Source of the DNA: a virus
Length of the DNA stretch: 30,825 nucleotides
Direction: 5' to 3' (one strand)
IMG/VR virus record: IMGVR_UViG_3300029624_000173
Location: 1-30,825 of that record
The notes beneath the pieces were generated by a model. That model saw only the letters and a program-made list of their open reading frames with translations. It made no database searches and was not told where the DNA came from. A program made the position numbers and the translations under genes. This document shows positions 1-28,077 of this stretch, one piece after another (positions within the stretch are counted from its first letter, which is position 1; each line of letters starts with the position of its first letter).

Positions 1-165
1 CATCACTTTCTGGGAAACCATAACAGGTGAGAAACCTTTATCACCCTTAGCCTTTACCACCTCATAAACAAGATTAGAGACTGGGAAAAGCTGAGATAAT
101 TCTTTGACAACTCGATATTCTAGGGCGCGGGGGTCGGCGTCGGGGGCGCACGGGGCAGGGGTCAT
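1..165 (-). CDS. Partial RRXRR / IscB-like protein fragment, C-terminus beyond window
   Basis: The reverse strand is open from an ATG at 165 to the window edge (55 codons). The AT-rich part reads EYRVVKELSQLFPVSNLVYE and then a stretch ending GFSPVMVSQKVM. From memory this resembles the RRXRR/IscB-like proteins of cyanobacteria and IS200/IS605-associated elements, which carry an EYRVxKEL...GFSPVMVxQK stretch; no search was made. The first 15 codons are GC-rich like the host and the remaining 40 are AT-rich, with the change at about 122. The true start could lie elsewhere if the junction is a recombination or assembly break. What is seen is an open frame with strong composition contrast; the family name is an inference of moderate strength. 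Confidence 0.42.
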   Translation of the reverse strand, partial: MTPAPCAPDADPRALEYRVVKELSQLFPVSNLVYEVVKAKGDKGFSPVMVSQKVM

Positions 166-240
166 GGGCGGCCTCGCGGGCTCGGCGCCGCCGGCGGCGG
201 GTGCGGGCGGTGCATCGGTGTGACGAGAGAGCCTTAGCAG

Positions 241-1305
241 ATGATCTTTCGCAGCGACAACGTGGCCGGCGTCGCGCCGGAAATTCTCGACGCGATCGTC
301 CGCAACGCGGGCGGGACGGCCGCGCCCTACGGCGCCGACGACGCGACCGCCCGGCTGCACGACGCCTTTGCCGAAGCGTTCGAGACCGACGACCTCGCCG
401 TCTTCCCGCTCGTCACCGGCAGCGCGGCCAACGCCCTCTCGCTCGCCCTGCTGACGCCGCCCTGGGGCGCGGTCTACGCCGAGGCGTCCGCCCACGCGAT
501 CGTCGACGAATGCGGCGGTCCCGAGCTGCAGACCGGCGGGGCCCGGCTGGTCGGGCTGCCGGGACGCCACGGCAAGCTCGACGCCGAAACCCTCGACGCG
601 GCGTTGGCCGACTCGGGTGCGGGCGACGTCCACCATGTCCAGCCGGCGGCCCTGACGCTGACCCAGGCGACCGAGGCGGGCACGGTCTACACCCCCGACG
701 AGGTCGCGGCGCTGGCCGCCGTCGCCCGCCGCCGCGGGCTGGGCGTCCACATGGACGGCGCGCGCTTCGCCAATGCGGTCGCGGCCGGTACGGCCGCGCC
801 GGCGGACCTGACCTGGCGCGCCGGCGTCGACGTCCTGAGCTTCGGCGCGACCAAGAACGGCTGCCTGGCGGCCGAGGCCATCGTGCTGTTCGGCCGCGAT
901 CCGGCGCGCGAGGCGGAGTTGGGCTTCCGGCGCAAGCGTGCCGGGCATCTGCTGTCGAAGATGCGCTTCGTCTCCGTCCAGCTCGAGGCGTATCTGGCCG
1001 GCGGCCTGTGGCTCGACCTGGCGCGGCGGGCCAACGCCGCCGCGGCGCGGCTCGGTGCGGGGCTGGCCGCGCTGCCGGGCTGCGCGCCGGTCCACCCGGT
1101 CGAGGCCAACGAGGTCTTCGCCCCGCTGCCCGAGGCGGTGCGGCGGGCCTACGACGACAACGGCATCGGCTGGGGCCCCTGGGATTCGGCCACGGCGCGC
1201 ATGGTCGCCGCCTTCGACACGACCGACGCCGACGTGGACCGGGCGGTCGCCGTCGCCCGCGACGCGCTGGCCGCCGCGGCGCTCACCGCCGCGGCCGGCC
1301 GCTGA
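241..1305 (+). CDS. ltaE: Low-specificity L-threonine aldolase (PLP-dependent)
   Basis: Predicted cytosolic fold-type I PLP enzyme that splits L-threonine or L-allo-threonine into glycine and acetaldehyde. The 354 residues match the usual length of about 340-360. The N-terminus has the RSDNVAG start typical of the family. HMDGARFANA at residues 170-179 supplies the aspartate that contacts the pyridine nitrogen and an arginine. SFGATKNG around residue 205 holds the Schiff-base lysine (K205). The ATG at 241 is chosen because the family motif starts within five residues; a weak GAGAG lies upstream. The gene converges on the FkbM gene with a 23-base overlap of 3' ends. It looks like an intact host gene unrelated to the prophage. 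Confidence 0.9.
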   Translation: MIFRSDNVAGVAPEILDAIVRNAGGTAAPYGADDATARLHDAFAEAFETDDLAVFPLVTGSAANALSLALLTPPWGAVYAEASAHAIVDECGGPELQTGGARLVGLPGRHGKLDAETLDAALADSGAGDVHHVQPAALTLTQATEAGTVYTPDEVAALAAVARRRGLGVHMDGARFANAVAAGTAAPADLTWRAGVDVLSFGATKNGCLAAEAIVLFGRDPAREAELGFRRKRAGHLLSKMRFVSVQLEAYLAGGLWLDLARRANAAAARLGAGLAALPGCAPVHPVEANEVFAPLPEAVRRAYDDNGIGWGPWDSATARMVAAFDTTDADVDRAVAVARDALAAAALTAAAGR

Positions 1306-2092
1306 CCGACCCGCCATCGCCCGGGCCGGCGGCGGGGCCCGCCGGCAGCCGGGCGAAGACGTCGACGTGGCCCGGCTCGCCGGAGAGCCGGGCCCGAAGG
1401 GTCGGCGCGTCGACCCAGTCGGGAAAGGCGAAGGCGCCGCCCTCGCCGCGCACCAGGTTGTAGCGGTAGGCCCCGAGGGCCTCGAGCCGCCGCAACGCCG
1501 CCTCGGCGGCCGCCGGCGCGGCGGCCAGCGCCTCGAAGCTGATGAGGTCGAGCGGCGTGTGAAGCCCGGCGAGGACGTCGGCCTCGCCGCCCTCGACGTC
1601 GATCTTGACGTAAGCCGGCCGGCCGTAGCGGGCGATCAGCCGGTCCAGGGTCTCCACCGGCACGTCGGCCGTGCCGTCCCACCGGACCTGGCTGAACCCG
1701 GGATCGGTCCGGACGGCGCCGATCCAGTCGGCGTGCAGCGTGCTGACCGTCGGGTGCCGCCGGCTGATGCGCAAGACGGCCTCGCCCGCGGCGCCGCCGA
1801 GCGCCGCCCCGACCAGGATCACGCGCGGCTCGCCGGCGAACAGACGACGCAGCAGGGCCAGGAACACGGGCTGGGGCTCGATCGCGACGACGCGCGCCCC
1901 GGCGTCGATCAGCGCGCGCGCCCGGTGTCCGACATGGGCGCCGACGTCGAAGACCAGCGCGCCCTCGGGAAGGATGCCGGCGTAGAAGCGGACGTGCCGC
2001 CGCCGGGCGCCGCGGTCGGCCCAATAGATCCGGATCGACCGCGCCAGGCCGAGGGCGGTGGCGACGCCGTCGGCAAGCCGTCGGAAGCTCAC
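1283..2092 (-). CDS. FkbM family SAM-dependent methyltransferase
   Basis: Predicted class I methyltransferase of 269 residues. VFDVGAHVG at residues 47-55 is the glycine-rich SAM-binding loop, IEPQP follows as the acidic ribose-binding strand end, and VKIDVEGGE at 162-170 is the signature of FkbM proteins. Members O-methylate sugars or polyketide-type substrates; the substrate here cannot be told. The start is a GTG at 2092 that overlaps the TGA of the upstream yceI-like gene (GTGA), so the two are probably translationally coupled. The frame stays open upstream to 2905, but that stretch is an antisense-free read-through of the yceI gene and not coding. The 3' end overlaps ltaE by 23 bases. 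Confidence 0.85.
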   Translation of the reverse strand: MSFRRLADGVATALGLARSIRIYWADRGARRRHVRFYAGILPEGALVFDVGAHVGHRARALIDAGARVVAIEPQPVFLALLRRLFAGEPRVILVGAALGGAAGEAVLRISRRHPTVSTLHADWIGAVRTDPGFSQVRWDGTADVPVETLDRLIARYGRPAYVKIDVEGGEADVLAGLHTPLDLISFEALAAAPAAAEAALRRLEALGAYRYNLVRGEGGAFAFPDWVDAPTLRARLSGEPGHVDVFARLPAGPAAGPGDGGSVSGRPRR

Positions 2093-2796
2093 TCCTGACG
2101 CCGGGCCTCGGCCTCGATCAGCAGGCTGACCCGGTCGCCGACCAGGCCCGAGTCGACGCCGTAGGTCATGCCCCAGTCCGACCGGTCGATCGCGCCCCGG
2201 ACCGAGACGCCGACGACGTACGCGGGCGGGAATCCGGGGGGGTACGCGCCGATCTTGTTCAGCGTGACGTCGAGGGTGATCGGCCGGGTCTCGCCGCGCA
2301 GGGTCAGGTCGCCGGTGACCGTGCCGGTCGTCTCGCCGGAGGCCTCGGCGCCGGTCATGACGAAAGTCATCTCGGGATGGGTCTCGGCGTCGAGGAAGTC
2401 GCCGCTGCGTACATGCTCGTCCCGGGCCTCGTGGAAGGTGTCGACGCTGGCTGTGCGCACGACGACCTCGAGGTCGGAGAGCGTGCGCGTGGCTTCGTCG
2501 AAGACGAAGGACCCCTCGACGTCGCGGAACAGGCCCAGCGTATCGGCGTAGCCGATGTGGCTGACCAGGAAGCCGACCGTCAGGTGCTCGGGATCGAGGA
2601 CGAAGCGCTGCGGCTCGGCCCGGGCGCCGGAGGGCGCCGCGACGATCGCGGCGGCCAGCGCCACGCCCGCGACAGCGGTCGACAGCCCCGGTCGCCGGCT
2701 CGAAGACTCGTCCCGACGGGATGACGGGCGTGCGGGCGACGGGCGCGTCGCGGACGGGCGGCAGGTGGCGGCGCGGCGGGCGGGCAGGGGCGTCAT
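2089..2796 (-). CDS. YceI family periplasmic lipid-binding-like protein
   Basis: YceI-domain lipocalin-like beta-barrel of 235 residues, probably periplasmic. A long N-region rich in Arg and Ser is followed by a hydrophobic stretch and an ARA/EPQ signal peptidase-like site near residue 65. The mature part starts RFVLDPEHL and contains FLVSHIGYADTLGLF, which matches the YceI pattern (DxxHS.v.F.v.H.g.s...G.F). The family binds isoprenoid-like lipids; no particular ligand is implied here. The start at 2796 is chosen over upstream in-frame codons because AGGAG lies eight bases before it. It overlaps the FkbM start by four bases, so the two likely form one transcript. Confidence 0.85.
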   Translation of the reverse strand: MTPLPARRAATCRPSATRPSPARPSSRRDESSSRRPGLSTAVAGVALAAAIVAAPSGARAEPQRFVLDPEHLTVGFLVSHIGYADTLGLFRDVEGSFVFDEATRTLSDLEVVVRTASVDTFHEARDEHVRSGDFLDAETHPEMTFVMTGAEASGETTGTVTGDLTLRGETRPITLDVTLNKIGAYPPGFPPAYVVGVSVRGAIDRSDWGMTYGVDSGLVGDRVSLLIEAEARRQE

Positions 2797-3014
2797 CTGT
2801 GTCTCCTGGGCGATCGGCCGGACGGCGCGGTCTCGATCCCTGGAGATAGGCGATCGCGTCGACGAGGAAACCCGTTCCGGCACGCCGGCGCGCCCAGCGA
2901 CGCACCAGCGGACCGGCGCCGCCGCGTCGGCAGCCTGGTAAGGCACGGGAGTCGGCCCGGACGCCCCCTTGCGTTCCCGCGCCGATTGTCCTATCTCTCC
3001 GGCCACTGCCTCGG

Positions 3015-3090
3015 GTCCCCTTCGTCTAGAGGCCTAGGACACCGCCCTCTCACGGCGGCAACAGGGGTTCGAATCCCCTAGGGGACGCCA
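3015..3090 (+). tRNA. tRNA-Glu (anticodon CTC)
   Basis: Full cloverleaf. The acceptor arm GTCCCCT pairs with AGGGGAC, then comes a G discriminator and an encoded CCA (3088-3090). The anticodon stem CCGCC/GGCGG encloses CTCTCAC with anticodon CTC. The T arm has GGTTCGAATCC. A tyrosine-integrase remnant starts 50 bases downstream, so this tRNA 3' end is the probable prophage attachment gene. Confidence 0.95.
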
Positions 3091-3120
3091 GCACTTAGCC
3101 GAATTTGGAGACCCCGTTTC

Positions 3121-3136
3121 TGTGACACGTGTCACA
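3121..3136. promoter_or_regulatory. Perfect 16-bp palindrome TGTGACACGTGTCACA
   Basis: A perfect palindrome lies between the tRNA end and the integrase stop codon. It fits the TGTGA-N6-TCACA pattern bound by CRP/FNR-type regulators exactly. Given its place at the presumed attachment region it could instead be an arm-type site for the integrase or excisionase. The symmetry is seen; the binding protein is inference. Confidence 0.5.
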
Positions 3137-3139
3137 GTT

Positions 3140-3520
3140 TCAGCCTTCCAGCGCCCGCACGGCGTCGGTGAGGTAGTCGGGGTCGAACTTGCGGTACACC
3201 CTTCTAAGCGTGTCGGGGTCGCAGGCCAGCAGGTCGGCCGCCTCGTCGATCGGAATTCGCGCCATCGCCAGCCACGAGGCCGCGGTGTGGCGCAGGACGT
3301 GCGGGGTGACGTCCGGCCCCAGGCCCGCGCGCGCTCGTGCGCGCTGGAACGGCCAGCGACTGACGGTCACGGGCTGTCCGTTCCATTCGATCACGTGGCC
3401 GCTGGTCCGCGCCCTGTAGGCTTCCTCCATCGCCGCGCGGAGCTTCGGGCCCATCGGCACGATGCCGCGGCGCTTGGCGTGCTCGACCTTGCCGGGCAGC
3501 GCGCCGCGCCGGGCTGGCGG
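3140..3520 (-). pseudogene. int: Tyrosine recombinase (integrase), C-terminal catalytic fragment
   Basis: The reverse strand encodes the C-terminal catalytic half of a phage tyrosine recombinase. HVLRHTAASWLA carries the HxxR box, and RRVYRKFDPDYL near the end carries the nucleophile tyrosine. The readable homology goes back to about 3520 (AKRRGIVPMGPKLRAAMEE and the residues before it). The N-terminal arm- and core-binding domains are missing: upstream the frame stays open but reads low-complexity residues opposite a plus-strand gene end. Full enzymes of this type are about 350-400 residues and barely a third remains, so it is unlikely to be active. The gene points at tRNA-Glu, as expected for an integrase beside its attachment site. 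An intact downstream Met at 3460 could still give a 106-residue product. Confidence 0.8.
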
Positions 3521-7854: not shown

Positions 7855-9201
7855 GTGACCGGAGACGACACCGAGGGGGCGGACCCGTCCGCCGGCGACG
7901 CCCTCGGCGACGCGGCGGAGGGTGGGCCGCCGGCGGGCGGGGAGGCGGCGATCCGGGCGGCCGCGGCGGCGGCCGACGGCGGAGAGCCGGACGATCTGGA
8001 GCTCGCGTGGAAGCCGCGCAGCGACCTGGGCAATGCCGAGCGGCTGATCGCCCGGCACGGCCGGGACCTGGTCTACGTCACCCAGGGCGACTGGGCCGCC
8101 TGGGACGGGCGGCGGTGGAACCGGGAGGACGGCGCGCCGGAGGCCCGGATCCGGTTCCACCGGACCGTGCGGGCCATGCGCGGGGAGGTCGACGCCCTGG
8201 CCGCCGCCGGCGCCGACAAGGACACGCTCGACGCCCTGCGCCGGCATGCCAACAGCTCCGGCAACAACGGCAAGGTCGAGGGAGCCCTGAAGAACGCCCA
8301 GCCCTATCTCCGCGTGGCGGCCCGGTCGATGGACGCCGATCCGCTGGCGGTGACGGTCGCCAACGGCACCCTGCGCCTGCGCGGCGCGGCCGACGTGAGC
8401 CTGACGCCCCATGCGCGGGGCGACCTGATCACCCGGCTCGCCGGCGCCGGCTATCGCCCGTCGGCCGACGCGCCGGAGTGGCAGCGCTTCCTCGCGGCGA
8501 TCCAGCCGGACGGGGCGGTGCGGGCGTTCGTTCAGCGGTTCATGGGCTACTGTCTGACCGGGCTCGTCTCCGAACAGGTGATGCTCGTGTGCTACGGCAC
8601 CGGGGCGAACGGCAAGTCGACCCTGGTCAAGCACGTGGCGCGGGTTCTGGGCGACTACGCGGCGACGCTGCCGATCGCCTCGCTCCTTCAGGACGAGCGC
8701 CGGTCGGGCTCGGAAGCCTCGCCCGATCTGGCGCGCCTGCCCGGCGTGCGCCTGGTCATGGCGTCGGAGCCCGAGCGCGGCGCGAAGCTGTCGGAGAGCA
8801 CGATCAAGCAGATCACCGGCGGCGAAGCGCTGGCGGTCCGGCACCTGTTCCGCGAGCAGTTCGAGTTCCCGCCGGCCTTCAAGCTCGTGATCACGACCAA
8901 CCACAAGCCGCGGGTGCAGGGCCAGGACGAGGGCATCTGGCGGCGCCTGCTGATGGTGCCGTTCCATACCTTCATTCCGTATGGCCGCCGGGACCCGGAC
9001 CTGGACGCCAAGCTGGAAGGGGAGGCCGACGGCATCCTCAACTGGTTGCTCGACGGCTATCGGATGTGGCGGGAGCAGGGGCTGTCGCCGCCGGACGTCG
9101 TCCGCGAGGCGACGGACGAATACCGGGTGGAGAGCGATCCCGTCGCCGACTTCCTGGCCACGTGCACCCGGCGGGTGCCGGGCACGTATGTCCGCGCCGA
9201 T
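7855..9201 (+). pseudogene. D5/P4-type phage DNA helicase, C-terminally truncated
   Basis: SF3 helicase of the phage/plasmid primase P4 family. After an acidic low-complexity leader (residues 1-50) comes the D5_N-like region. Walker A GTGANGKST is at 248-256, the Walker B-like strand RLVMASEPE at about 299-307, and ITTNHKPRV (346-354) and the IWRRLLMVPF arginines follow. The homology stops after VPGTYVRAD (codon 449, base 9201), exactly before the winged-helix domain that normally ends these proteins. The frame stays open to 10188 only because it reads tape-measure DNA out of frame, giving 328 Arg/Gly-rich residues with no family resemblance. A deletion has fused it to the tape measure gene. 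The ATPase core is intact, so some activity cannot be excluded. Confidence 0.8.
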
Positions 9202-10897
9202 GTCGGCGATCGCCGGCGCCGGTGCCGCCTACGGCCTGGGCCGCGTCGTCACCGGCTTCGCGGCGGCCGGCGACGGCGCGGCGAAGACGGCCCGCCGCCT
9301 CAACATGGGCGTCGAGGGCTATCAGGAGCTCGCCTACTGGGCCGAGCGCAACGGCATTGCCCAGAACCAGATGAACCAGGGCCTGCGCCAGCTCTCCGTC
9401 CGCCTGGGCCGCGCGGCCGCGGGCGAGAACGAGAAGCTGGCGGGCCTGCTCGAGCGCCTGGGCATCGGCCTGCGCGACGCGGAGGGCGCGGCCCGGCCGG
9501 TCGAGGCGATCATGGGCGACCTGGCCGAGGCGTTCGCGCTCAACGAGGACCCGATCCTGCGCAGCCGCATGGCGACCGAGCTGTTCGGGGAGGAGATGGG
9601 CGTGAACTTCGTCGACGCGCTCAGCCAGGGCCGCGAGGCCCAGCGCGCGCTGCGGCAGGAAGCCCGCGACCTCGGCATCGTCATGAGCGGGGAGGCGGCG
9701 ACGGCGGCCGAGGCGCTGACCGACGCTCAGACCAACCTCGCCGGCGCGGCCCGGGGGCTGGGCCTCGTCATCGGCGCCAAGCTGGCGCCGGTGCTCACGC
9801 CGATGATCGAGGACCTCGCCGCCTGGATCGCCGCCAACCGGGAACTGATCGGCCAGCGCGTGTCCGAGGTGGTGGGCGCCCTGGCGGAGACCCTTCGCGG
9901 CGTGGACTGGGGCGCCGTCGCCGAACGGATCGGCAGGATCGCCGGCACGGTCGAGAGCGTCGTCGAGGCCATCGGCGGCTGGGACCGCGCGGCCGTCGGC
10001 CTGGTCGCCCTGCTCAACGCCGACCTGCTGGTCGCCATCGGCGCGGTCGCCAAGGCGCTGGGTGCGCTGGCCGTCACGCTGCTCGCCAACCCGATCGGCC
10101 TCGCCGTCTTGGCGATCGCCGGCGGCGCCTACCTGATCGTGCGCAACTGGGAGGGCATCGGCCGGTGGTTCGGGGAGCTGTGGGATAGCGTGAGAACGAT
10201 CTTCCGAGGCTTCGGCAATTGGCTGGGCGGGATCTTCACCGGGGATTTCGGCCGGGCCGCCGACGGCGTGCGCGAGATGTGGTCCGGCATCGAGGACTAC
10301 TACGCCACGCTCTGGAACGGCGTGACGTCGGTGTTCCAGGGCTTCGCGACCTGGATCGAGACGACCTTCGGCGTCGACCTCTCCGCCGCCGTGGCGCCGA
10401 TCCGGGAGGCCTGGGCGCCCATCGGCCGGTTCTTCGACGACCTGATGACCCGGATCGCCGACGCCTTCCGCAGGGTCTGGGAAGTGGTCGGCCCGATCGT
10501 GGAGGACCTGCGCCTGGCTGTCGGCAAGATCACCGAATGGACCGGCCGGATCGGCGAGGCGCTGAGCGACAACGCCATCACCCGCGGTGCCGGCGCCGTG
10601 GCGGACATGGCCGACCGGCTGTTCGGCGGGGACGAGGCGGACGACGCCCTGGCGGCCGGGGCGGGGCAGGGCGCCGACGCCGCAGCGACCGGCCCCCGAG
10701 CCGCACCCGGCGGCCCGCCCGACCTTGTCGGCCGCTCCGTCGCCGCCGGCGTGGGCGCGCCGGGTGGGGGCGAGGTGCGGGTGCTCAACCGCGTGGAGAT
10801 CCCCAACGCACCCGAGGGGACGCGGGTCACCACCGAGACCGAGGGCCCCGGCGGGCAGCGGGAGCGGGAGAGCTTCTGGCCGGCGGGGTGGTTTTGA
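9188..10897 (+). pseudogene. Phage tail tape measure protein, C-terminal part
   Basis: A frame of 569 residues whose content is the C-terminal part of a Mu/P2-like tape measure protein. AKTARRLNMGVEGYQELAYW and the following AERNGIAQNQMNQGL are the recognisable 'is the object close to this helix' repeats of these proteins. ELFGEEMGVNFVDAL follows, then a long region with a hydrophobic span (LVALLNADLLVAIGAVAKAL, then an ANPIGLAVLAIAGGAYLIV stretch near 315-330), and repeated W-x-GI/V-F segments. The N-terminal part is missing: the in-frame ATG at 9188 lies in helicase DNA. Its last 60 codons are duplicated at 12.9-13.1 kb. The next backbone gene (DNA circularisation protein) is now 7 kb away, separated by cargo. 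Confidence 0.75.
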
Positions 10898-10900
10898 GGG
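10718..10900 (+). repeat. Tape-measure 3' end repeat, copy A
   Basis: The last 183 bases of the tape measure gene, including its stop, recur at 12924-13115 in the same orientation. The final 120 or so bases are nearly identical; upstream the copies differ by small insertions. The two copies bracket the sce7726/beta-family cargo. Confidence 0.85.
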
Positions 10901-11015
10901 TGCAACCAGTGACCGTGGCCCGATGATCGCCTATTATTGAAAGTCGCACTGACGGAATCGACCTGTTCGTGAGCGGGGCCGCGTGCCGGCCCCGAAGCCA
11001 GGGAGCATCCCGAGG

Positions 11016-11729
11016 ATGCGCGACGCCGATGTTCGCCGCGCCCTGCTTTGCACGCTCGAAGACCAGCACGGCGACGAACCCGATACGCGCATCGTCCAGG
11101 AGATGGGCGTCTGGTCGGGGTCGGTCCGAATCGACGTGGCGGTCATCAACGGCGAGCTGACGGGCTTCGAGATCAAGAGCGACCGCGACACGCTCGACCG
11201 CCTGCCGGTGCAGGCCGACCTCTACAGCCGCGTTTTCGACCGCGTCCATCTCGTGGTTGGGGAGCGGTACGCCGCCAAGGCGCGGAGGCTTCTGCCCGAC
11301 TGGTGGGGGATCACGGTCGCCCGCGCGCGGGCCGACTCGCTGGCCCTGTTCGAGGACCGGGAGGCGGGCCGCAACCCCGATCCCGAGCCCTATCTGGTCG
11401 CGCAGTTGATGTGGCGCGCCGAGGCGCTGGCGCTCCTGGACCGCTACGGGTTGGCCAAGGGCTTCCGGTCCAAGACGGCCGAGGTGATCCACAACCGCCT
11501 GGCCCGCGAGCTGCCGTTCGACGTCCTGGCCCGGCACGTCCGGGAGACGCTGAAGCGGCGGGAGGGCTGGCTAGGGAAGTCGGTCGGCGACAAGCCAGAG
11601 GTGCCGGTTGACCATGATGCCGGCCCAGGTGACGCGGCTGCCGGCATTGGTCGTCCCGTTGGCGATGGCCCGGATATGCTGGTCGGCGACGCACCCGCGC
11701 AGTCCGCCGAACGCCGGCTCGTCCAGTAG
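11016..11729 (+). CDS. sce7726 family protein, predicted PD-(D/E)XK nuclease
   Basis: A 237-residue protein that I match to the sce7726 family. It starts MRDADVRRALLCTLEDQHGD, and SVRIDVAVINGELTGFEIKS at about 36-55 gives the nuclease-like D40...E52-x-K54 arrangement. QADLYSRVFDRVHLVVGERY follows as in the family. An in-frame GTG at 10983 exists, but GGGAG ahead of the ATG at 11016 and the family start favour the latter. From about residue 190 (REGWLGKSVGDKPEV onward) the sequence is unlike the family and lies opposite the end of the beta-family gene, a 159-base convergent overlap. The natural C-terminus may have been replaced by read-through. Family members sit in variable regions and are suspected of a defence role; that role is not proven. 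Confidence 0.7.
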   Translation: MRDADVRRALLCTLEDQHGDEPDTRIVQEMGVWSGSVRIDVAVINGELTGFEIKSDRDTLDRLPVQADLYSRVFDRVHLVVGERYAAKARRLLPDWWGITVARARADSLALFEDREAGRNPDPEPYLVAQLMWRAEALALLDRYGLAKGFRSKTAEVIHNRLARELPFDVLARHVRETLKRREGWLGKSVGDKPEVPVDHDAGPGDAAAGIGRPVGDGPDMLVGDAPAQSAERRLVQ

Positions 11730-12569
11730 TTTCGTGGCGTGGCCCCGGTACTGCAGCTCCATCTTCCGACCGCTGGGGCCGGCCGTCGGCCGGCCCTTCA
11801 AGACGACCCAGGCGTCGTCGATCGCGTACTTCACGCTGACGGTCGCCCGCCCCATCGCCGGGCCGGGCGGCTCCGTCAGGTCGGGATTGGCATGGGCGTA
11901 GTCCCCGTAGTCGAGGGCGAACGGCACGGCCTCGGCGACGGCGGACCACAGGTGCCAGTCGCTGCGCCGCAGCTCGGACCGGCCGAAGGGGAGCGCGGAC
12001 AGATCCCGGGGCGCGGCCGCGGAAGCGAGCGCGATAGAGCGCCAGCGATCGGGGTGAGGGAGCTTCTGCGTCAGCACGTAGCGCAGGTAGTCGGCGACGC
12101 CGGCCACACTGCCGGGAGTGATTTCCCCCGCGTCGACGACGAGGTCGATGTCCTCGGGACGCCAGCCGTGGTCGGCCGTTCGAGCCGCCAGGGCGCCGAC
12201 CTCCTCGGGCGCGGCCTTCACCACGAGGCCGGGCCCGTAGCGCCCGATCATGCTGCGGGCGGCCTGGACGTAGCCTCCCGGCGCGGAGAGCGGGATCGAC
12301 GGGATCACCGGGACGCCCGCCGCGCCCAGGGCCGCGAACAGGCTCGAGAACGTGCCGGCGCCGCCCACTGTGTCGAAGTGGAAGCGGCCGTCCAGAGCGA
12401 TCGGGCGATTGCGCCATGCGTCGGCGAACTTGGATGCGAACCGGCTTGTCGGCTTCTCCGGCAGGTGGATGACGGGGAAGATCCGGTCCGTGGCCGCCTG
12501 ATCCAGGTCTCTCAGCGCAACGGCCTCGCCCGCCTTCGAGCGGAGCAGGGGAACATAGCGACGGCGCAT
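11571..12569 (-). CDS. Beta family protein (Beta_protein fold), candidate defence partner
   Basis: A 332-residue protein with the features of the 'beta family' (Pfam Beta_protein). The start is RRRYVPLLRSKAGEAVALRD, then RIFPVIHLPEK, and a TIM-barrel-like alternation with FHFDTVGG, GVPVIPSIPL and DIDLVVDAGEI strands. The C-terminal third has a RGHATKLL and a tryptophan-rich VTWAGIMVNRHLWLVADRLP ending. It points towards the sce7726-like gene and overlaps it by 159 bases. From memory, genes of these two families often lie side by side. The ATG at 12569 has AGAGGA upstream. An inverted repeat sits just before it. The family's activity is unknown to me. Confidence 0.7.
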   Translation of the reverse strand: MRRRYVPLLRSKAGEAVALRDLDQAATDRIFPVIHLPEKPTSRFASKFADAWRNRPIALDGRFHFDTVGGAGTFSSLFAALGAAGVPVIPSIPLSAPGGYVQAARSMIGRYGPGLVVKAAPEEVGALAARTADHGWRPEDIDLVVDAGEITPGSVAGVADYLRYVLTQKLPHPDRWRSIALASAAAPRDLSALPFGRSELRRSDWHLWSAVAEAVPFALDYGDYAHANPDLTEPPGPAMGRATVSVKYAIDDAWVVLKGRPTAGPSGRKMELQYRGHATKLLDEPAFGGLRGCVADQHIRAIANGTTNAGSRVTWAGIMVNRHLWLVADRLP

Positions 12570-12923
12570 CGGTCCTCTTTCGTGTGAGTCGATCGGCTGA
12601 CCAAGCGGCCGTTCACACGAAGATCACAGCACTCTCCGCAACTCAAGTGCGTAGTGCGCTTCTCTTGCTATCGTCGGCGCGGGAGATCCGGGTCGGCCCG
12701 CGAAACGGTGCGCACGGTTCGCAAGTAGAGGACGTCGGTCTCGGGTACACGATTGCGGTTTGGGGGGTGGCCGGTTTCGGCCGGGACTCTCCACCCAACG
12801 CTTTGATTTTGTTGAGTAATGGGGTGGCCGGTTCTCCGTTGTGACGATGCGGTTGTCGGAGATTCCGGCAGACTGGCGACGGGAGCCCCGGCAGGGCAGG
12901 TGCCGCCGCAGCGAGGATCAGCC
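12570..12923. other. Non-coding stretch upstream of the beta-family gene, with short repeats
   Basis: No convincing gene. It holds the inverted repeat at 12579-12621 and two direct copies of GGGGTGGCCGGTT (12764-12776 and 12821-12833), with a CCACCC/GGGTGG pairing between them. An open frame across it (12584-12844) has no family resemblance and no ribosome-binding site. Towards the right it grades into degenerate tape-measure sequence before the good repeat begins at 12924. Confidence 0.5.
12579..12621. promoter_or_regulatory. Inverted repeat TTCGTGTGA / TCACACGAA upstream of the beta-family gene
   Basis: Two perfect 9-bp inverted arms (12579-12587 and 12613-12621) separated by 25 bases begin ten bases before the beta-family start codon. 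They could be an operator or an mRNA leader stem. No adjacent regulator clearly belongs to it. Confidence 0.4.
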
Positions 12924-13115
12924 CCCGACCTTGTCGGCCGCTCCGTCGCCGTGGGCGTCGCCGGCGTGGGAGCGCCGGGCGGGGGCGAGGTGCGGGTGCT
13001 CAACCGCGTGGAGATCCCCAACGCACCCGAGGGGACGCGGGTCACCACCGAGACCGAGGGCCCCGGCGGGCAGCGGGAGCGGGAGAGCTTCTGGCCAGCG
13101 GGGTGGTGGTGAGGT
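12924..13115 (+). repeat. Tape-measure 3' end repeat, copy B (gene-end duplicate)
   Basis: Encodes the same tail as the tape measure gene, from PDLVGRS to RESFWPAGWW and a TGA at 13110, without the rest of the gene. It differs from copy A by a small insertion (VAGVG for AG) and a few bases. It is the right border of the 2-kb sce7726/beta cargo. Which copy is ancestral cannot be told from the window. Confidence 0.85.
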
Positions 13116-13234
13116 CGACGATTAGACGAGAGCACTCCAGCGGACCCGGACATGAGGGGCTTGAAAATTATCCGTCGCCGTGAACACTCTTCTGTTCAAC
13201 AATTCTGAAGAGAGCTGGGAGAGGTTTGGAAGCG

Positions 13235-14287
13235 ATGCCGACCGCGTACAAGACAGTCCACTATAGAAGGTTGAAGCGCGAAGCATTTCCCGACAAGACG
13301 CTCGCCGTCGCACTCGACGACGCGATGAAAAGTGATGTCGGCAATGGCACGACCTATATCCAAGATTGGCAGAGTCGTAGAGCTCCAGCACCACGCGGAG
13401 ATGGTTCAGAGAGATTCATAAACTATTACGAACCGGTTGATGAGAATGGTATCTCTTTCGGCACACTTTGCGTGTTCTCTCCTGGTCAGATGCAAGCTCT
13501 CTTGGATATAAGTGCGGGCACATCCTCTCCGACCGCACCTGTCGATATGGTCGGAATTGCCGAAGAGACCGCTCCAAGCGGGATGGAGTTTCTTCATGGG
13601 ATCACGTATTGGCTCTGCATTCACGATCATTTCTTGATGGCTCAACACATTTCTTTGAAATCAAAAGCTATAGAAGAATACTTTACTTGGTTTCTGCGCG
13701 ATAAAACCGGTCAGATTGCCTCAAGCGACTATGTTATTCTTGACGCGGCCTTCGATCTCGCTTCGATTGGCGGAGATCTTGGAGAAATAAACAAAATTCA
13801 CGTTGGTGGATTAGTTCCAGAGACCATACCACAGGTAGGAGATGAGCAACCTCAAACACGGGAATCGTTTACCGTAAGAGATGTAGAGGAACATCGGTCA
13901 CTTTTTAAGGGGCAGCCGGCCCTTGGCAGGGCGCGTAATATATTGGATGCGGTTTTTGGAGACACAGATGCGCAGAGGATAATGAATTCGGTTCCAGAAG
14001 ATGCTGCACTAGAAGTAAGTGTAAATGTCGGATATAGTTCAACAAAAAGAAAGATTGATAAAAATTTCATGTCGGAGATGGCAACTAGTTTGCGTAATTT
14101 TGAAGATGGAGAGGTTCGTATTGAGGGAAAGGATACAAAAATTAAGGGAGATAGCGCGTTTATTCAGGAAAAGATGCCATTCGCTTTACTCCACGATGGC
14201 AGTTCACTCCTGGATCTACCGGATACGAGGGACAAGCTGATTAAAGTGTACACCAGGCTCATGGAGGATGGTAGACTCCCTATGTGA
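13235..14287 (+). CDS. Unrecognised 350-aa soluble protein, first gene of an AT-rich pair
   Basis: No family recognised. It begins MPTAYKTVHYRRLKREAF, and an early polar region is followed by SGMEFLHGITYWLCIHDHFL and IEEYFTWFLRDKTG (about residues 115-155), a pattern reminiscent of host-defence proteins of unknown function. The rest is mixed alpha/beta with no membrane segment or known catalytic motif. Base composition is close to 45-50% GC, far from the flanking phage genes, so it was acquired separately. The ATG at 13235 (with GGGAGAGG upstream) is preferred over a TTG at 13226. The membrane-protein gene starts 18 bases downstream, so the two form an operon. Kiwa has a comparable soluble-plus-membrane layout, but neither order nor sequence lets me assign it. 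Confidence 0.7.
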   Translation: MPTAYKTVHYRRLKREAFPDKTLAVALDDAMKSDVGNGTTYIQDWQSRRAPAPRGDGSERFINYYEPVDENGISFGTLCVFSPGQMQALLDISAGTSSPTAPVDMVGIAEETAPSGMEFLHGITYWLCIHDHFLMAQHISLKSKAIEEYFTWFLRDKTGQIASSDYVILDAAFDLASIGGDLGEINKIHVGGLVPETIPQVGDEQPQTRESFTVRDVEEHRSLFKGQPALGRARNILDAVFGDTDAQRIMNSVPEDAALEVSVNVGYSSTKRKIDKNFMSEMATSLRNFEDGEVRIEGKDTKIKGDSAFIQEKMPFALLHDGSSLLDLPDTRDKLIKVYTRLMEDGRLPM

Positions 14288-14305
14288 ACGTTTTAGGAAC
14301 AAGGC

Positions 14306-14893
14306 ATGCTCTGGCGTGTGCAGATCGTTGTCCCTCTCTCATGTGGTGTGATGGCGTTCTTCGTAATGAAGCCGCACCATTGGGTCGAGGTGCGCCAGGG
14401 TCTCTTGGTAATCCTCTCGATCATCGCAGGCGCAGTTATGGTGCGTCTTGCGCGTGGTGTTCCAGCCATTGAAACAGAGTATCTTTCGTCGGATGAAGTT
14501 GCCAAGTTTCGGATGGCTGTAGAGAAAGTCACTATTCGTTTAGTGGTAATGCTAATCGCCACATTATTAGCGGTGCTTGGGCTGGCACTTATTTCACTAT
14601 TCCAACAAATCATTCTAGAGATTTCTTGGCTCAAAAAAGAAAGTATTGAGTTGTCATTATCATTAGTGAGCGGAGCGCTTGGTGCTCTAGTTTCGTATGT
14701 GTTTGTGCGTGTATACTTCCTAGTAAGGGCGGATCGGAGTCTGATGAGAATTCAGGGGGATTTTCTATTGCAAAATATCGAAAGAAGAGAGAATAAAGAG
14801 AAAGCAAGGCAATTTGAACTTTCCGTAGAAAATAGTGTTACGCAAAGACGTCAGAAAAATCCGGAGAATTATGGCCGGAGAATTGAACATTAG
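14306..14893 (+). CDS. Multi-pass membrane protein, second gene of an AT-rich pair
   Basis: A 195-residue protein with three to four predicted membrane helices: about 5-18 (VVPLSCGVMAFFVM), 30-48 (GLLVILSIIAGAVMVRLA), 75-100 (LVVMLIATLLAVLGLALISL) and 118-140 (LSLVSGALGALVSYVFVRVY). A charged cytosolic tail rich in Glu, Lys and Arg ends it. It follows the soluble 350-residue gene by 18 bases with AGGAA upstream of the ATG. A soluble sensor plus small membrane effector is a repeated architecture in antiphage modules, and that is the basis for treating the pair as a candidate system. There is no sequence proof. AT-rich like its partner. Confidence 0.7.
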   Translation: MLWRVQIVVPLSCGVMAFFVMKPHHWVEVRQGLLVILSIIAGAVMVRLARGVPAIETEYLSSDEVAKFRMAVEKVTIRLVVMLIATLLAVLGLALISLFQQIILEISWLKKESIELSLSLVSGALGALVSYVFVRVYFLVRADRSLMRIQGDFLLQNIERRENKEKARQFELSVENSVTQRRQKNPENYGRRIEH

Positions 14894-14954
14894 AGCGGGA
14901 ATCTAGTGTTCATCTAGTTGTACAGTCGCGATTCATGTGGCGGTTAGGACTGGG

Positions 14955-15182
14955 TTAGGGGCTTCTTAACCTCACTCCCGGCCCGCCGCCGTTCGCGTCG
15001 ATGAACTCGACGCCGGCGGCCTCGAAGGCCGCCCGGACAACGGCAATCGTCGACGCGTTGGTGCGCTCGCCTCGCTCGATCCGTGTCACCGTGTTCGGCG
15101 AAACCTTGGCTCTCGCGGCGAGCTCGCGGACCCCGAGTTGCAGGGCAGCCCGCGCCATCCGGCATTGTTCTGGTGTCAGCAT
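14955..15182 (-). CDS. Small XRE-type transcriptional regulator, paralogue 1
   Basis: A 75-residue helix-turn-helix protein: MLTPEQCRMARAALQL, then GVRELAARAKVSPNTVTRIE as the recognition unit (about 17-36). The tail AAGVEFIDANGGGPGVRLR is shared exactly with the neighbouring paralogue at 15208. It converges on the AT-rich two-gene cargo. The family is common in alphaproteobacteria as short stand-alone regulators. Its target is unknown, but the position suggests control of the cargo or of the phage genes to its right. Confidence 0.85.
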   Translation of the reverse strand: MLTPEQCRMARAALQLGVRELAARAKVSPNTVTRIERGERTNASTIAVVRAAFEAAGVEFIDANGGGPGVRLRSP

Positions 15183-15207
15183 GATCGGATCGTGCTCTCG
15201 GGTGGGC

Positions 15208-15441
15208 CTACGGCTGCCTCAGCCTCACCCCCGGCCCGCCGCCGTTCGCGTCGATGAACTCGACGCCGGCGGCCTCGAGGACTTTGCAGATGTCGGCCAA
15301 GGTCCGGTCGTAGGGCTTCCTCCTGCCGGCTTCGAACTCGGTGAGTGTCGCCCTGGAAACTCGGGCAGCGCTTGCGAGCTCTTCCTGAGAGAGGCCCACG
15401 AGACCACGCGCGGCGCGGCACTGTGCCGGAGTTATCTTCAT
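15208..15441 (-). CDS. Small XRE-type transcriptional regulator, paralogue 2
   Basis: A 77-residue helix-turn-helix regulator: MKITPAQCRAARGLVGLSQE then ELASAARVSRATLTEFEAGR, ending AAGVEFIDANGGGPGVRLRQ. The Met at 15441 is chosen over a farther one at 15489 because it matches the paralogue's start. It lies 25 bases upstream of paralogue 1 on the same strand, and their last 58 bases are nearly identical at DNA level, so the pair arose by tandem duplication or by gene conversion at the tail. A third truncated member lies at 30621-30692. Confidence 0.85.
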   Translation of the reverse strand: MKITPAQCRAARGLVGLSQEELASAARVSRATLTEFEAGRRKPYDRTLADICKVLEAAGVEFIDANGGGPGVRLRQP

Positions 15442-15531
15442 TTCGCCCAACTCTATTCGGAATGCGTTGACTTGGCTGAAAAGCGGCATTATGGCTAACC
15501 GTAGGCGGAGCGCATTGGAAGGGCAACGGGC

Positions 15532-15966
15532 ATGACGGACACTCTCTATCGACAGACCAAGTCGCCGAACTCGCCCGAGTCACTGGAGCCGGATCATCAG
15601 CGCAGTTGGTCCGATAGCGCAGAGATGTCGGTCACTGTCGTCGCCTGGCGCCGCTGGCACGCCGCCTTCCAGGCCCTCCAGTCCGCTTGGATCGAGGCCG
15701 ACACGACCCCGTCGCCCGCGGCCGACGCGGTGGTGGCCGAGGCCGACCGGGCGGAGGAGGCGGCGCGGGCTGCGGTGCTGGCGCGCCGCGAGCTTACGCC
15801 GGCGGCGATCGGCGCGCGGCTGCACATCGTCTTCACCCTGGCCGAGGTCGTCGACGACCCGGCCAACGAGCCGCTGCGCGACCTGGCGCGGCTGACCGAG
15901 CCGCTTGTCCCGGCAGACCTTGCCCGCGCCCTGCGCGAGTCCATCGATCCGATCGAAGAGGAGTGA
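15532..15966 (+). CDS. Phage hypothetical protein, 144 aa
   Basis: Unrecognised protein. It has an N-terminal polar 30-residue leader, then an alanine-rich helical body (ADAVVAEADRAEEAARAAVL, about 64-83) and an acidic end (ESIDPIEEE). The alternative ATG at 15625 (MSVTVVAWRRWHAAFQ) would remove the leader. It precedes the antirepressor-like gene by four bases, with that gene's GAGGAG ribosome-binding site lying in its last codons, so they are probably co-transcribed. It could be a small phage regulator or tail accessory protein; no claim is made. Confidence 0.55.
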   Translation: MTDTLYRQTKSPNSPESLEPDHQRSWSDSAEMSVTVVAWRRWHAAFQALQSAWIEADTTPSPAADAVVAEADRAEEAARAAVLARRELTPAAIGARLHIVFTLAEVVDDPANEPLRDLARLTEPLVPADLARALRESIDPIEEE

Positions 15967-15970
15967 CACC

Positions 15971-16828
15971 GTGACCGCCATCGTCGAGCAGGTCGAGTTC
16001 CAGGGGCAGACGCTGTGGGCTGCCAGCGAGGACGGTGCGATCTACGTCGCCGTCAAGCCGATCTGCGAGGCGCTCGGCCTCTCGCTAGAAGGCCAGCGCC
16101 AGCGGATCAAGCGGGACGAGGTACTGTCAGAAGGGGCGTGTGTCATACACGCCCCTTCGCCGGGAGGGGTCCAGCCGACCTATTCCCTCCGACTCGACCT
16201 CCTGAATGGCTGGCTGTTCGGGATCGATGACCGGCGCGTCCGGGACGCGGCGACGCGGGAGCGGGTGCTGACCTACAAGCGCGAGTGCTACCGCGTCCTG
16301 TTCGAGCACTTCCACGGCCGCGCCGCCGAGGCCGTCGGCGATGCGGCGGACGGGGAGGAGAGAGCGGCGGCGGCCGGCCCGCTCGACCTGCCGGCCGACG
16401 CCCGCATCTGGGTGGAGCTGGTGCGCGAGGCCCGCCTGCTGCGGGGCAGGCCCGCCGCCGAGGCCCTGTGGCTCGCCTCGCCCCTGCCGCCCCTGCCGGA
16501 GGGCGAGCGGCGCGACGGCGCGGCGGGCGGAGGGTCGGCCGGCGGCGCCGACCCGGCCGCCCGGGCGATCGGCACCTTCCTCGCCGAACGCACCGAGCCT
16601 GCCCCGGGCCACCAGACCCCCGCCGGCGCCCTCTACCGCGCCTATGCCGCCTGGTGCGCCGACCACGCCCTCGACCCCGTCACCACCACCGCCTTCGGCC
16701 GGGCGCTCGGGGCGCGAGGTTACGCCAAGCGGAAGGCGGGGACGGTGTTCTACACGGGGCTGCGGGTGCGGGAGGCGAGGGCGGCCGCCCCGGCCGACGA
16801 GATCGCCCTGAGCGCCACGGGCGGATAG
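15971..16828 (+). CDS. Phage antirepressor (P22_AR_N) with D5-like winged-helix C-terminus
   Basis: A 285-residue protein in two parts. Residues 1-118 match the P22 antirepressor N-terminal domain: AIYVAVKPICEALGLSLEGQ and RQRIKRD, later LLNGWLFGIDDRRV and YKRECYRVLFEHF. After a linker rich in Gly, Ala and Pro, residues 210-275 (TPAGALYRAYAAWCADHALD, then TTTAFGRALGARGYAKRK) resemble the winged helix that normally ends D5/P4 helicases. The GTG at 15971 has GAGGAG seven bases upstream. Antirepressors bind and inactivate phage repressors. The winged-helix part adds a DNA- or protein-binding module, and it is the piece missing from the truncated helicase at 7855. Confidence 0.7.
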   Translation: MTAIVEQVEFQGQTLWAASEDGAIYVAVKPICEALGLSLEGQRQRIKRDEVLSEGACVIHAPSPGGVQPTYSLRLDLLNGWLFGIDDRRVRDAATRERVLTYKRECYRVLFEHFHGRAAEAVGDAADGEERAAAAGPLDLPADARIWVELVREARLLRGRPAAEALWLASPLPPLPEGERRDGAAGGGSAGGADPAARAIGTFLAERTEPAPGHQTPAGALYRAYAAWCADHALDPVTTTAFGRALGARGYAKRKAGTVFYTGLRVREARAAAPADEIALSATGG

Positions 16829-16842
16829 CGAACGGCGTTCGC
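16828..16842. repeat. Palindrome GCGAACGNCGTTCGC, copy 2 (N=G)
   Basis: Overlaps the last base of the antirepressor stop codon and is identical to copy 1 at 7829. It separates the GC-rich phage gene from the AT-rich DUF6615-like cargo. Confidence 0.7.
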
Positions 16843-16894
16843 GTTTGCCAAGAAAGGCCCTGAACCAACTTTCACGCACGTTTAGAAATGATTC

Positions 16895-17827
16895 TCAGTA
16901 ATCACCATTCAATATTCTCCGATAATCATCGTCATCACGTGTCAATTGTGTCCAAAAGATGATGCGCTTGTGTTGAATGTTATTACGATCTTCATCGGTC
17001 ATTTCGTTATGTATTGATCTTCTAATATCTGGAGCGATTTCCATCTCCGGCGAGGCGCGCCGAGCGATTTCCATTGACTGGGTTCGATCAGTGCTATCCG
17101 CCATACGATCAAGCAACCTGTTAACGCGTTTGGCGACAAAATCTGGATGAAAGTTCCCACTTAGCAACCTTCCTGAACTTGAATCTTCGCCTAAATCTGG
17201 AAGAGCTATGAATCCAATGTACTGATCGGCATTATTGAACCAACTCTCGATAAATTTATCGTATTCTGGAAAACACAACAGAGAATGAAGTGGAAGGAAA
17301 TACTTTCTCCATCTAGATACATATTTTTCCTTTGTGCTGCATTTTTTTGTTGCAATCGGAAAAACATAATTAGCTGGTACTATATTTACGCCTTCAATAT
17401 CCGGAAGATATCGTGATCCAGAATCGAGAATAGATAATGGATGATAAAACATATAAAAACACAACGTTGTGCTTCCAGCATTATTCATCAAGGTTTTTGC
17501 TTGATCTCCATGATTCTTGCCATAATCTAGATGATTGTAATATCCATATGTTGTTCTCTTGGTTTTTCTGATCTTAGCTCGTTTCGATTGAATGAGAAAC
17601 TTCCTCATTATATTATCTCTGGGTGCGGCGAATATCCATTCCATGTCTGCGCCAGTTTTTGACTCAATTGGAAAGTCAAATTTCACAAAATAAGGCTGTA
17701 TCGAAATAAGACTTGCCAAAAATAGGTCAGTAACAGATTCCTCGCGAAAATTTCTTTTAAGTGTCCTGTCCATCTCTAAAAAGCGAGCGACTGTGTGCGG
17801 GAATTGTTTCGAAAATTGGCAGAGCAT
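16895..17827 (-). CDS. DUF6615-like protein, PD-(D/E)XK-type nuclease candidate
   Basis: A 310-residue, AT-rich gene on the strand opposite to the phage operon. NFREESVTDLFLASL (26-40), KTGADMEWIFAAP (57-69) and FLIQSKRAK (77-85) follow the DUF6615 pattern. The acidic and lysine residues (E30, D61/E63, Q80-x-K82) fit a restriction-endonuclease-like core. The rest is mixed, with a proline- and tyrosine-rich middle (YMFYHPLSILDSG). The ATG at 17827 has GGAGGAG eight bases upstream, a strong site, so the gene looks intact and expressed. DUF6615-type genes lie in variable regions of genomes; a defence role is inferred from fold and context. It lies between the antirepressor and the first distal tail gene. 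Confidence 0.65.
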   Translation of the reverse strand: MLCQFSKQFPHTVARFLEMDRTLKRNFREESVTDLFLASLISIQPYFVKFDFPIESKTGADMEWIFAAPRDNIMRKFLIQSKRAKIRKTKRTTYGYYNHLDYGKNHGDQAKTLMNNAGSTTLCFYMFYHPLSILDSGSRYLPDIEGVNIVPANYVFPIATKKCSTKEKYVSRWRKYFLPLHSLLCFPEYDKFIESWFNNADQYIGFIALPDLGEDSSSGRLLSGNFHPDFVAKRVNRLLDRMADSTDRTQSMEIARRASPEMEIAPDIRRSIHNEMTDEDRNNIQHKRIIFWTQLTRDDDDYRRILNGDY

Positions 17828-17992: not shown

Positions 17993-19294
17993 ATGTCCTG
18001 GAGAGCCGAAGCCCGTCCGGCCGCGTTTCGCGGCGTGCCGTTCTGGGTGGAGGATGCCGGCGCGTCGGGCGGCCGCCGGGGGGAGGATCACGAGTACCCG
18101 CAGCGCGAGCGCGGCTGGGCGGAGGACCTGGGCGCGGCCGCGCGGCAGGGGACGCTCGCCGGCTACCTGATCGGGCCGGACCACCGGGCGCAGGCCGCGC
18201 GGCTGGAGGCGGCGCTGGGGCGGGCCGGGCCGGGGACGCTCGACCATCCGCACCGGGGCGAGCTGCGCGTCCAGGTCCGCCGCTGGCGCTTCGCCGAGCG
18301 CGCGGCCGAAGGCGGGATGACGCGGGTCCATCTGGACTTCGTCGAGGCCGGGGAGAACGTCCAGCCGACCGCCGCGCCCGACACCGGGGCCGAGGCGGGC
18401 CGGGCGGCCGATGCCGCAGAGGCGGCCGCCCGCCGGGCCTTCCGGGTGGCCGCGCGCCTCGCGACCATGACCGACACGGTGCGTGCCGCCCTGCGCGGCG
18501 ACATCGGCGCGATCGTCGCCGTGACGGGCGAGGCGCTGGCGATGATCCCGGTGCGCGACATCGCGGCCGCCGCCGGGCTCGACCGGGCGCTCGCCGGGCT
18601 GGCGGCGGCGGCGGACCGGGATATCGACCTGGGCGATGCCGCCGCGCTCGCCGGCCGGGTGGGCGACGCGGTCGACCTGCTGCGCCGGTCGGGGGCCGTC
18701 GACGTCGCCCGGCCGGCGCTCGCCCGGCTCGGCTGGGCCGACGGTGCGGACGGGGCGCTCGGCATCGTCGATACCGCCTCCGGCGGGGTCGGGGCGCGGG
18801 ACGCGCCGACGGCCGCCCGGCGCGGGCTCGACCGGCTGGCCGGTTTCGGCACCCTGCCGGCACCCGGCAGCGGGCCGGCTGCGACCGCGGCGGCCAACGG
18901 CGCGGCCGTGACCCGGCTGGTGCGCCGCGTCGCCACCGTCGCCATCGCCCGGGCAACCCTTGACCGACCGAGCGACGACCGGCCCCCGGGCGACCGGGCC
19001 GACGCGCTCGCCCTGCGCGACGATGTGCTGGGCGCGCTCGACCGCGTCGTGCTCGATGCCGGGGAGACCGGGGAGGACGCGGTCGCCGGTGCCTTCGCCG
19101 GGCTGTCGGTCGCCGTCGCCCGTCATCTCTCCGGCCGCGCCGACCGCGCTCGGCCGGCGCCGGCCGAAACGGGCGCGGCCCTGCCGGTCCCGTCGCTGGT
19201 CGCGGCCTACCGGGCCGCCGGCGACGCCGCCGGGGCGCCCGCGCTGGCGGCGGGCGCCTGGCATCCGGCGTTCGTCGGCGGGGTGGGATCGTGA
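17993..19294 (+). CDS. Mu gp43-like DNA circularisation / tail protein
   Basis: A 433-residue member of the DNA_circ_N family, the first gene of the distal tail cluster in Mu-like phages. The start SWRAEARPAAFRGVPFWVED followed by HEYPQRERGWAEDLG is characteristic of the N-terminal domain (about 5-95). The remaining three quarters are alanine-rich helices. In Mu the homologue sits at the tape-measure/baseplate interface. Here the tape measure gene that should lie directly upstream is 7 kb away behind cargo. It overlaps the next gene as GTGA and is therefore coupled to it. Confidence 0.82.
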   Translation: MSWRAEARPAAFRGVPFWVEDAGASGGRRGEDHEYPQRERGWAEDLGAAARQGTLAGYLIGPDHRAQAARLEAALGRAGPGTLDHPHRGELRVQVRRWRFAERAAEGGMTRVHLDFVEAGENVQPTAAPDTGAEAGRAADAAEAAARRAFRVAARLATMTDTVRAALRGDIGAIVAVTGEALAMIPVRDIAAAAGLDRALAGLAAAADRDIDLGDAAALAGRVGDAVDLLRRSGAVDVARPALARLGWADGADGALGIVDTASGGVGARDAPTAARRGLDRLAGFGTLPAPGSGPAATAAANGAAVTRLVRRVATVAIARATLDRPSDDRPPGDRADALALRDDVLGALDRVVLDAGETGEDAVAGAFAGLSVAVARHLSGRADRARPAPAETGAALPVPSLVAAYRAAGDAAGAPALAAGAWHPAFVGGVGS

Positions 19295-21602: not shown

Positions 21603-22505
21603 ATGATGCTTACGCCTTTCGGTGTGACCCTCAGAAAGCTGCGTCTCGACAAGCAGATGCGGCTCCTGGACCTTGCGCGCGCGCTCGGGCACTCGTCGTC
21701 TTACGTCTCCGCCATCGAAACGGGCCGCAAGCCGATCCCGGACGGCTACGTCCAGTCGGTGGCAGGTGTAATGAAACTGAGCACGGCCGAAGCGGCCGAG
21801 CTTCAGCGTTCCGCCGATCGAACCCGGGAGGAGGTTGCGGTGGCCGACCTCGACGAGCCAAAGAAAGAGCTCGTCGCGGAGTTCGCACGCAAGGTGAGCA
21901 CGTTCGACGAACGGCAACTGGAGCGGATAAAGCGCTCGTGGGTCTTCAAGAGCGATGGCTCCGAGCCTTTTAACCGACGCCGGCGCGGCCTGCTCGTCGC
22001 GCCGGCGAGTTACGACAAGCTCTGGAATGCTGCTGACACGGTCAGGTCCGCTCTCGTGCCGGATGATCAGATCTACGCACCAGTGGACGAGATCGTCGAA
22101 TCAAAACTTGGGGCCTTCTTCGAAGGCTATTGCTTCGATGTGCTTGAAGAGCACGAGATGCGCAATGAAGAAGGTCGAGCAATCCCGAGCACCAATACAA
22201 TCGAGATTCGTAACGACGTATATCAGGCTGCATGTGATGGCGAGCCAAGGCCCCGCTTCACCCTCGCTCACGAGCTCGGACACTTCCTTCTTCATCGGCA
22301 CGTGGCGATGCCGCGATCGAGCGATGACCATCCGATCTATCGCGACGCTGAATGGCAGGCGGACACCTTTGCCGGCGCATTCCTTATGCCTCGCCGGCAT
22401 TTGGCGCGCTTCGACAGCATCCGTACTGCGGCGTCAATGTGCGGCATCTCTGTCCGCGCCGCAGAAGTGATGTGGGGAAAGTACAGGGAGCGCGGCTATG
22501 TCTGA
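21603..22505 (+). CDS. XRE regulator fused to ImmA/IrrE-type metallopeptidase
   Basis: A 300-residue protein. The N-terminal XRE helix-turn-helix (about 5-65, with LLDLARALGHSSSYVSAIET) and a linker precede a zinc metallopeptidase domain with LAHELGHFLLHRH (HExxH at 223-227) and a likely third ligand in AEWQADTFAGAFLMP (E250). ImmA-type proteases cut repressors, for example to induce mobile elements or relieve toxin-antitoxin repression. Here regulator and protease are one chain, as in many stand-alone stress or phage-response regulators. GGGAGGA lies three bases before the ATG; a second ATG follows directly. It sits alone between gp46 and gp47 with its own promoter candidate and terminators. 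Confidence 0.88.
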   Translation: MMLTPFGVTLRKLRLDKQMRLLDLARALGHSSSYVSAIETGRKPIPDGYVQSVAGVMKLSTAEAAELQRSADRTREEVAVADLDEPKKELVAEFARKVSTFDERQLERIKRSWVFKSDGSEPFNRRRRGLLVAPASYDKLWNAADTVRSALVPDDQIYAPVDEIVESKLGAFFEGYCFDVLEEHEMRNEEGRAIPSTNTIEIRNDVYQAACDGEPRPRFTLAHELGHFLLHRHVAMPRSSDDHPIYRDAEWQADTFAGAFLMPRRHLARFDSIRTAASMCGISVRAAEVMWGKYRERGYV

Positions 22506-27516: not shown

Positions 27517-27791
27517 GCGCCGTCCTCGCCCTGCTCGCCGGCCTGCTCCCGGGCCGGCGGGCGCGCCTGTGGCTGGCCGCCGCCGCACTGGTGGCGGCCG
27601 CCGTCGCCCTGGCCGTCCTCGGCGCCCGCCGCGCCGGCGCCCGCGCCGCCCGCCAGGCGGCCGAGCTCGACGCTCTGCGCCGCACGCTGAACGCCAAGGA
27701 GACCCGCGATGCCGTGGAAGACGACCTGCGCCGCGCTGGCGATCGCGCTGTCCGCGACCGCCTGCGCACCCGCTGGACCCGCCGGCCCTGA
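27513..27791 (+). CDS. Rz-like inner-membrane spanin
   Basis: A 92-residue protein starting at a GTG that overlaps the endolysin stop. An N-terminal membrane helix (about 20-42, LWLAAAALVAAAVALAVLGA) is followed by a charged helical region (AARQAAELDALRRTLNAKET then EDDLRRAGDRAVRDRLRTRW) like the periplasmic coil of i-spanins. The Rz1-like gene starts inside it in another reading frame, the classic nested arrangement of Rz/Rz1 pairs. Assignment rests on shape and position. Confidence 0.65.
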   Translation: MSAVLALLAGLLPGRRARLWLAAAALVAAAVALAVLGARRAGARAARQAAELDALRRTLNAKETRDAVEDDLRRAGDRAVRDRLRTRWTRRP

Positions 27792-27915: not shown

Positions 27916-28077
27916 GGGGAGGCGAAGCGATCCGCCGCGCACTGGCACGGAACTTATGCGTCGGCCGGGGTGTCTCGCCTAAGTGGATTTGAAACGTGCT
28001 GCTCCCACCTTCATGATCAGGAGCGATTCACGGTGACGGTCGACCGTGATGCAGTCTGCGCGTGGGAGCGACGTCCG

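Follow-up and report, generated by a model that had tools for sequence, protein, structure and literature searches.

A detached tape-measure gene end and cargo genes between the late genes of a degraded provirus

The 3' end of the tape-measure protein (TMP) gene occurs twice in the stretch of DNA analysed here (the window, 30,825 nucleotides): once as the end of the gene itself and again as a detached copy, with a pair of cargo genes between the two and further cargo beyond. A second, weaker gene-end repeat accompanies other cargo in the same provirus. To account for both repeats, we lean towards a stacking of cargo by homology-driven recombination between related phages, whereby the displaced gene end would be the scar of such an event.

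The repeated tape-measure gene end and the genes between its copies

The TMP open reading frame (8981–10897, plus strand; PHROG tape measure, E 3e-54) lacks its N-terminus, and its TMP homology begins at ~9194. A blastn search of the window against itself revealed that the last 182 nt of the gene (10718–10899; copy A, in the PHROG/TMP frame) are repeated on the same strand at 12924–13114 (copy B). Both copies contain the stop codon, and copy B has no gene body upstream. This repeat is by far the top self-match of the contig (286 bits, E 6.6e-78), and the copies are 93% identical over 191 columns with their starts 2206–2215 nt apart. These data bear out the first-pass annotation, which had described ~180 bases recurring 2.2 kb downstream in the same orientation.

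Copy B differs from copy A by one 9-nt in-frame insertion and five substitutions, which comprise single changes at 10756, 10765 and 10882 and a TT/GG change at 10893–10894. The longest identical run, 116 nt, starts at 10766, in agreement with the near-identity that had been claimed for the final ~120 bases. Four of the five substitutions fall at third codon positions, and an amino acid is altered in the last codon only; our own binomial estimate for this bias, which uses the positions alone and few sites, is ~0.045. The third-position bias and the in-frame indel, at these few sites, hint that the copies may have diverged in two functional genes. Upstream of copy B, likeness to TMP continues as a faint gapped extension to ~12890 only, with a score reached by 1/500 single-base shuffles. 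Two exact GGGGTGGCCGGTT motifs (12764–12776 and 12821–12833) are located just 5' of copy B. We presumed that these might represent an IS21-type element end, a candidate that was dropped when they gave no significant plasmid match and none in 81 genomes or viral contigs.

Two genes lie between the copies, and profile searches assigned them to the families that the first-pass annotation had named. The first is an sce7726 family gene (10983–11729, plus strand; NCBIfam NF033832, E 7e-46) with a promoter-like site ahead of it (10909–10937), and the second is a Beta_protein gene (11571–12569, minus strand; PF14350, E 5e-46). The two are convergent with overlapping 3' ends, and PADLOC matches to PD-Lambda-2_C and beta agree with the Beta-family assignment. 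The stretch from the Beta 5' end to copy B (12570–12923) is apparently non-coding. In the satellite P4, cII (annotated as sce7726 family) and beta follow gop in the same convergent layout, and gop-beta-cII of P4 is a tested anti-phage system (Rousset 2022, PMC9122126). By tblastn, P4 cII matched the window gene weakly (E 3e-14, 27% identity), while P4 gop gave no significant match in the window, the stretch ahead of copy B included, and the window Beta was recognised by profile only. The pair is thus a known module minus gop, with a predicted defence role; unlike the P4 locus, it sits in the tail operon of a degraded provirus. The closest plasmid matches to the pair are from Agrobacterium (57% and 41% identity), where the two genes are adjacent and convergent by tblastn position and the annotation covers sce7726 only. 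Our literature search recovered almost nothing on the sce7726/beta pair.

The segment between the TMP copies gave no match to a recombinase, transposase or reverse transcriptase, which upholds the earlier claim that integrase and transposase genes are absent there. Across the entire contig there was no resolvase or reverse transcriptase match, and the sole integrase match is a C-terminal remnant at 3224–3352.

The degraded provirus, its further cargo and its relatives

The contig is a degraded provirus, as seen from its tRNA-Glu site, its integrase stub and a primase gene fused to the truncated TMP gene. Bases 1–3014 hold an alphaproteobacterial gene with best matches of ~60% identity, followed by the tRNA-Glu (3015–3090), which together with the integrase remnant (3015–3352) probably marks the provirus attachment site. 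At ~9200 (9150–9250) the primase homology stops and the N-truncated TMP homology starts, the two being fused out of frame. The primase C-terminus and the TMP N-terminus are both absent at this junction, as are the head and early tail genes, and the junction may reflect either decay or a misjoin.

Copy B is followed by 4.9 kb of additional cargo, partly of low GC. Gene-by-gene profile matches describe this second block (13226–17827) as a low-GC phrog_3482 gene without a Pfam or PADLOC match (13226–14287, plus strand), an ORF (14306–14893, plus strand), two HTH genes on the minus strand, a P22_AR_N protein gene (15905–16828, plus strand) and a DUF6615 gene (16895–17827, minus strand). Next comes the DNA-circularisation/baseplate hub gene (17993–19294, plus strand; phrog_184, E 7e-62), which in relatives normally adjoins TMP, and after it the Mu/SfV-like baseplate genes, the later of which have a repressor-like HTH/peptidase gene (21603–22505) between them. 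The C-terminal end of an HTH regulator is present in three copies (14964–15025, 15217–15278 and 30630–30691). Over 56 nt, the first and second copies share 98% identity, whereas the remainder of the two proteins differs; the third is a fragment adjoining the start of an IS5-family transposase gene at the contig end (30760–30825; 76% to an IS5-family gene of a Methylocystis plasmid).

Self-blastn also revealed a second, weaker gene-end repeat, at the lysis end of the provirus, which the earlier annotation had overlooked (27759–27922 and 28460–28621, 80%, E 1.5e-35). Its first copy is the end of a plus-strand ORF (27709–27912) that we take to be an Rz1-like spanin gene because it overlaps an Rz-like spanin frame. 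The other copy, also on the plus strand, is a degenerate end that has lost the stop codon and is followed by an ApeA gene (28852–30327; PF18862, E 2e-17). A small ORF without a family match (28081–28378, plus strand) lies between them. The two copies differ at 9/6/13 sites by codon position, a weak third-position bias.

For comparison of the TMP junction, loci were fetched by the circularisation protein and supplemented with two phage records, which gave 112 relatives with a recognisable upstream TMP and 99 distinct ends; all are distant, and the empty form of this exact site is not represented among them. The gap from TMP to the next gene was ≤60 nt in 97 of the 112, 60–350 nt in nine and >350 nt in six, with a maximum of 670 nt. 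Inspection of the six longest gaps and of one shorter gap showed a single short candidate gene in each; none of the 112 matched the cargo proteins of the window. A cargo hotspot at the TMP end, which had been suggested, thus finds no support in these relatives. The first-pass annotation had further reasoned that an ordinary tandem gene duplication should show both copies in all relatives, and a second TMP end was found in 0/112 of these distant relatives, which yielded four weak off-site matches of 27–42 nt. Since the 112 relatives have a short gap and lack a second end, the 7.1-kb block between TMP and the circularisation gene is an insertion relative to them and not an ancestral tandem duplication.

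The nearest TMPs recovered in genome searches are ~41% identical, which precludes a nucleotide-level comparison of the repeat. When viral contigs and genomes were searched with a 24-mer, with peptide patterns of TMP and with a degenerate pattern for its end, no close relative was returned, and the searches yielded neither a donor phage, a single-copy form nor other cargo between the same ends.

Proposed cargo stacking and alternative origins of the repeats

Under cargo stacking, we infer a resident phage in which TMP end B would have been followed by the second cargo block and then the circularisation gene, and a related donor phage whose incoming DNA would have carried TMP end A and the sce7726/Beta pair. 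On the left side, a crossover by homology within TMP would have kept the gene intact with end A, a complete TMP gene being retained because the incoming DNA brought a replacement end. On the right side, homology would have played little or no part: the far flank of beta would have been joined to a point shortly before the TMP end of the resident, and that end would survive as copy B. No dedicated integrase would be required. A similar event at the Rz1-like end could account for the partial copy that precedes ApeA, and decay of the provirus would have come later.

This order of events is consistent with the presence of two gene ends as direct repeats, cargo being located both between the copies and beyond them, and with the finding that each end copy has its own cargo directly after it, while relatives have TMP adjoining the circularisation gene and a single end. 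The third-position bias and in-frame indel of the TMP copies would be expected if both had diverged as working ends in two phages. Against stacking stand the failure to find a donor, the weak third-position bias of the Rz1-like copies and the other rearrangements in the contig, on account of which a chimeric assembly could mimic the pattern. Temperate phages and defective prophages form mosaics by homology-driven exchange, for which even short and diverged stretches can serve (De Paepe 2014, PMC3945230), and recombination has been proposed as the means by which defence loci are exchanged in P2/P4 (Rousset 2022, PMC9122126). The first-pass annotation had offered two options for the TMP repeat; the data agree best with recombination between related phages, to which the second gene-end repeat lends weight, while an element inserting at the gene 3' end found no positive support.

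Phage mosaicism and morons are already known, and detached gene ends at two loci would be an unusual trace of them. As described for morons (PMC3945230), the window has conserved late genes separated by additional genes that its relatives lack; unlike them, it retains a detached partial end of the neighbouring gene at two loci. A limited literature search turned up no earlier description of phage cargo flanked by duplicated gene ends. The phage resembles the P2-like and P4 defence hotspots (PMC9122126) in carrying the defence-type genes Beta, sce7726 and ApeA, but those hotspots adjoin cos and recur in many genomes, whereas at the TMP site the sampled relatives have either nothing or a single short candidate gene. 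If stacking is correct, detached gene ends would be a legible trace of defence genes that phages acquired with no dedicated integrase, and any phage collection could be screened for such ends. The claim is based on a single contig without close relatives, and the two cases in this one provirus make it testable. A broader and distinctly speculative extension is that late-gene 3' ends serve as reusable docking sites, at which units of gene end and defence cargo move by homologous recombination and stack. It is comparably doubtful that each insertion would restore the gene and leave the older end as a marker, which could also allow clean loss of cargo.

Chimeric assembly, in which two related phage populations were joined at their common TMP end and the primase–TMP fusion is another misjoin, is an unlikely source of the pattern. 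In its favour, the window is an IMG/VR record, the identical core is long and both the primase C-terminus and the TMP N-terminus are missing at the junction near 9200. However, the pattern occurs at two gene ends, an assembler could hardly be misled by Rz1-like copies of only 80% identity, and the host flank, tRNA and integrase stub make sense together as parts of a genuine degraded provirus. Integration of a circle is quite unlikely as well: circular cargo bearing one TMP end would, by a single homologous crossover, generate precisely the order end, cargo, end, and could loop out again. The 116-nt identical core would suit such a crossover, but the copies differ on both sides of it, so the circle would have to stem from another TMP lineage; in addition, the homology of copy B fades upstream rather than continuing, and no circular form or excised site was seen.

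A partial duplication of the TMP end in place, followed by separate cargo insertions, would make a second phage unnecessary. We regard it as very unlikely, as the substitution pattern and in-frame indel suggest coding constraint on both copies and no tandem end was present in any of the 112 relatives. Integration into tRNA genes or gene 3' ends can restore the end, and the TMP arrangement may recall such integration if a site-specific element that carried a replacement end had inserted in the 3' end of TMP and a recombinase had acted in trans. Unlike integrative elements at gene 3' ends, however, the TMP segment has no integrase, resolvase or other recombinase of its own between the copies, the 112 relatives show no trace of a comparable insertion at this site, and one site-specific enzyme would not account for the recurrence of the pattern at another, unrelated gene end, which together make this origin highly improbable.

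A diversity-generating retroelement, in which the downstream copy would serve as template for a variable repeat at the gene end, shares with the window the repetition of a gene 3' end downstream and was rejected as having next to no chance, since the contig has no reverse transcriptase match and no adenine bias (only two of the five substitutions coincide with adenines in the supposed template, where the majority of adenines are unchanged). A similar arrangement is present in one relative (L135), in which a gene end (16767–16914) and its downstream repeat (17374–17521) apparently differ mainly at adenines, as in such retroelements.
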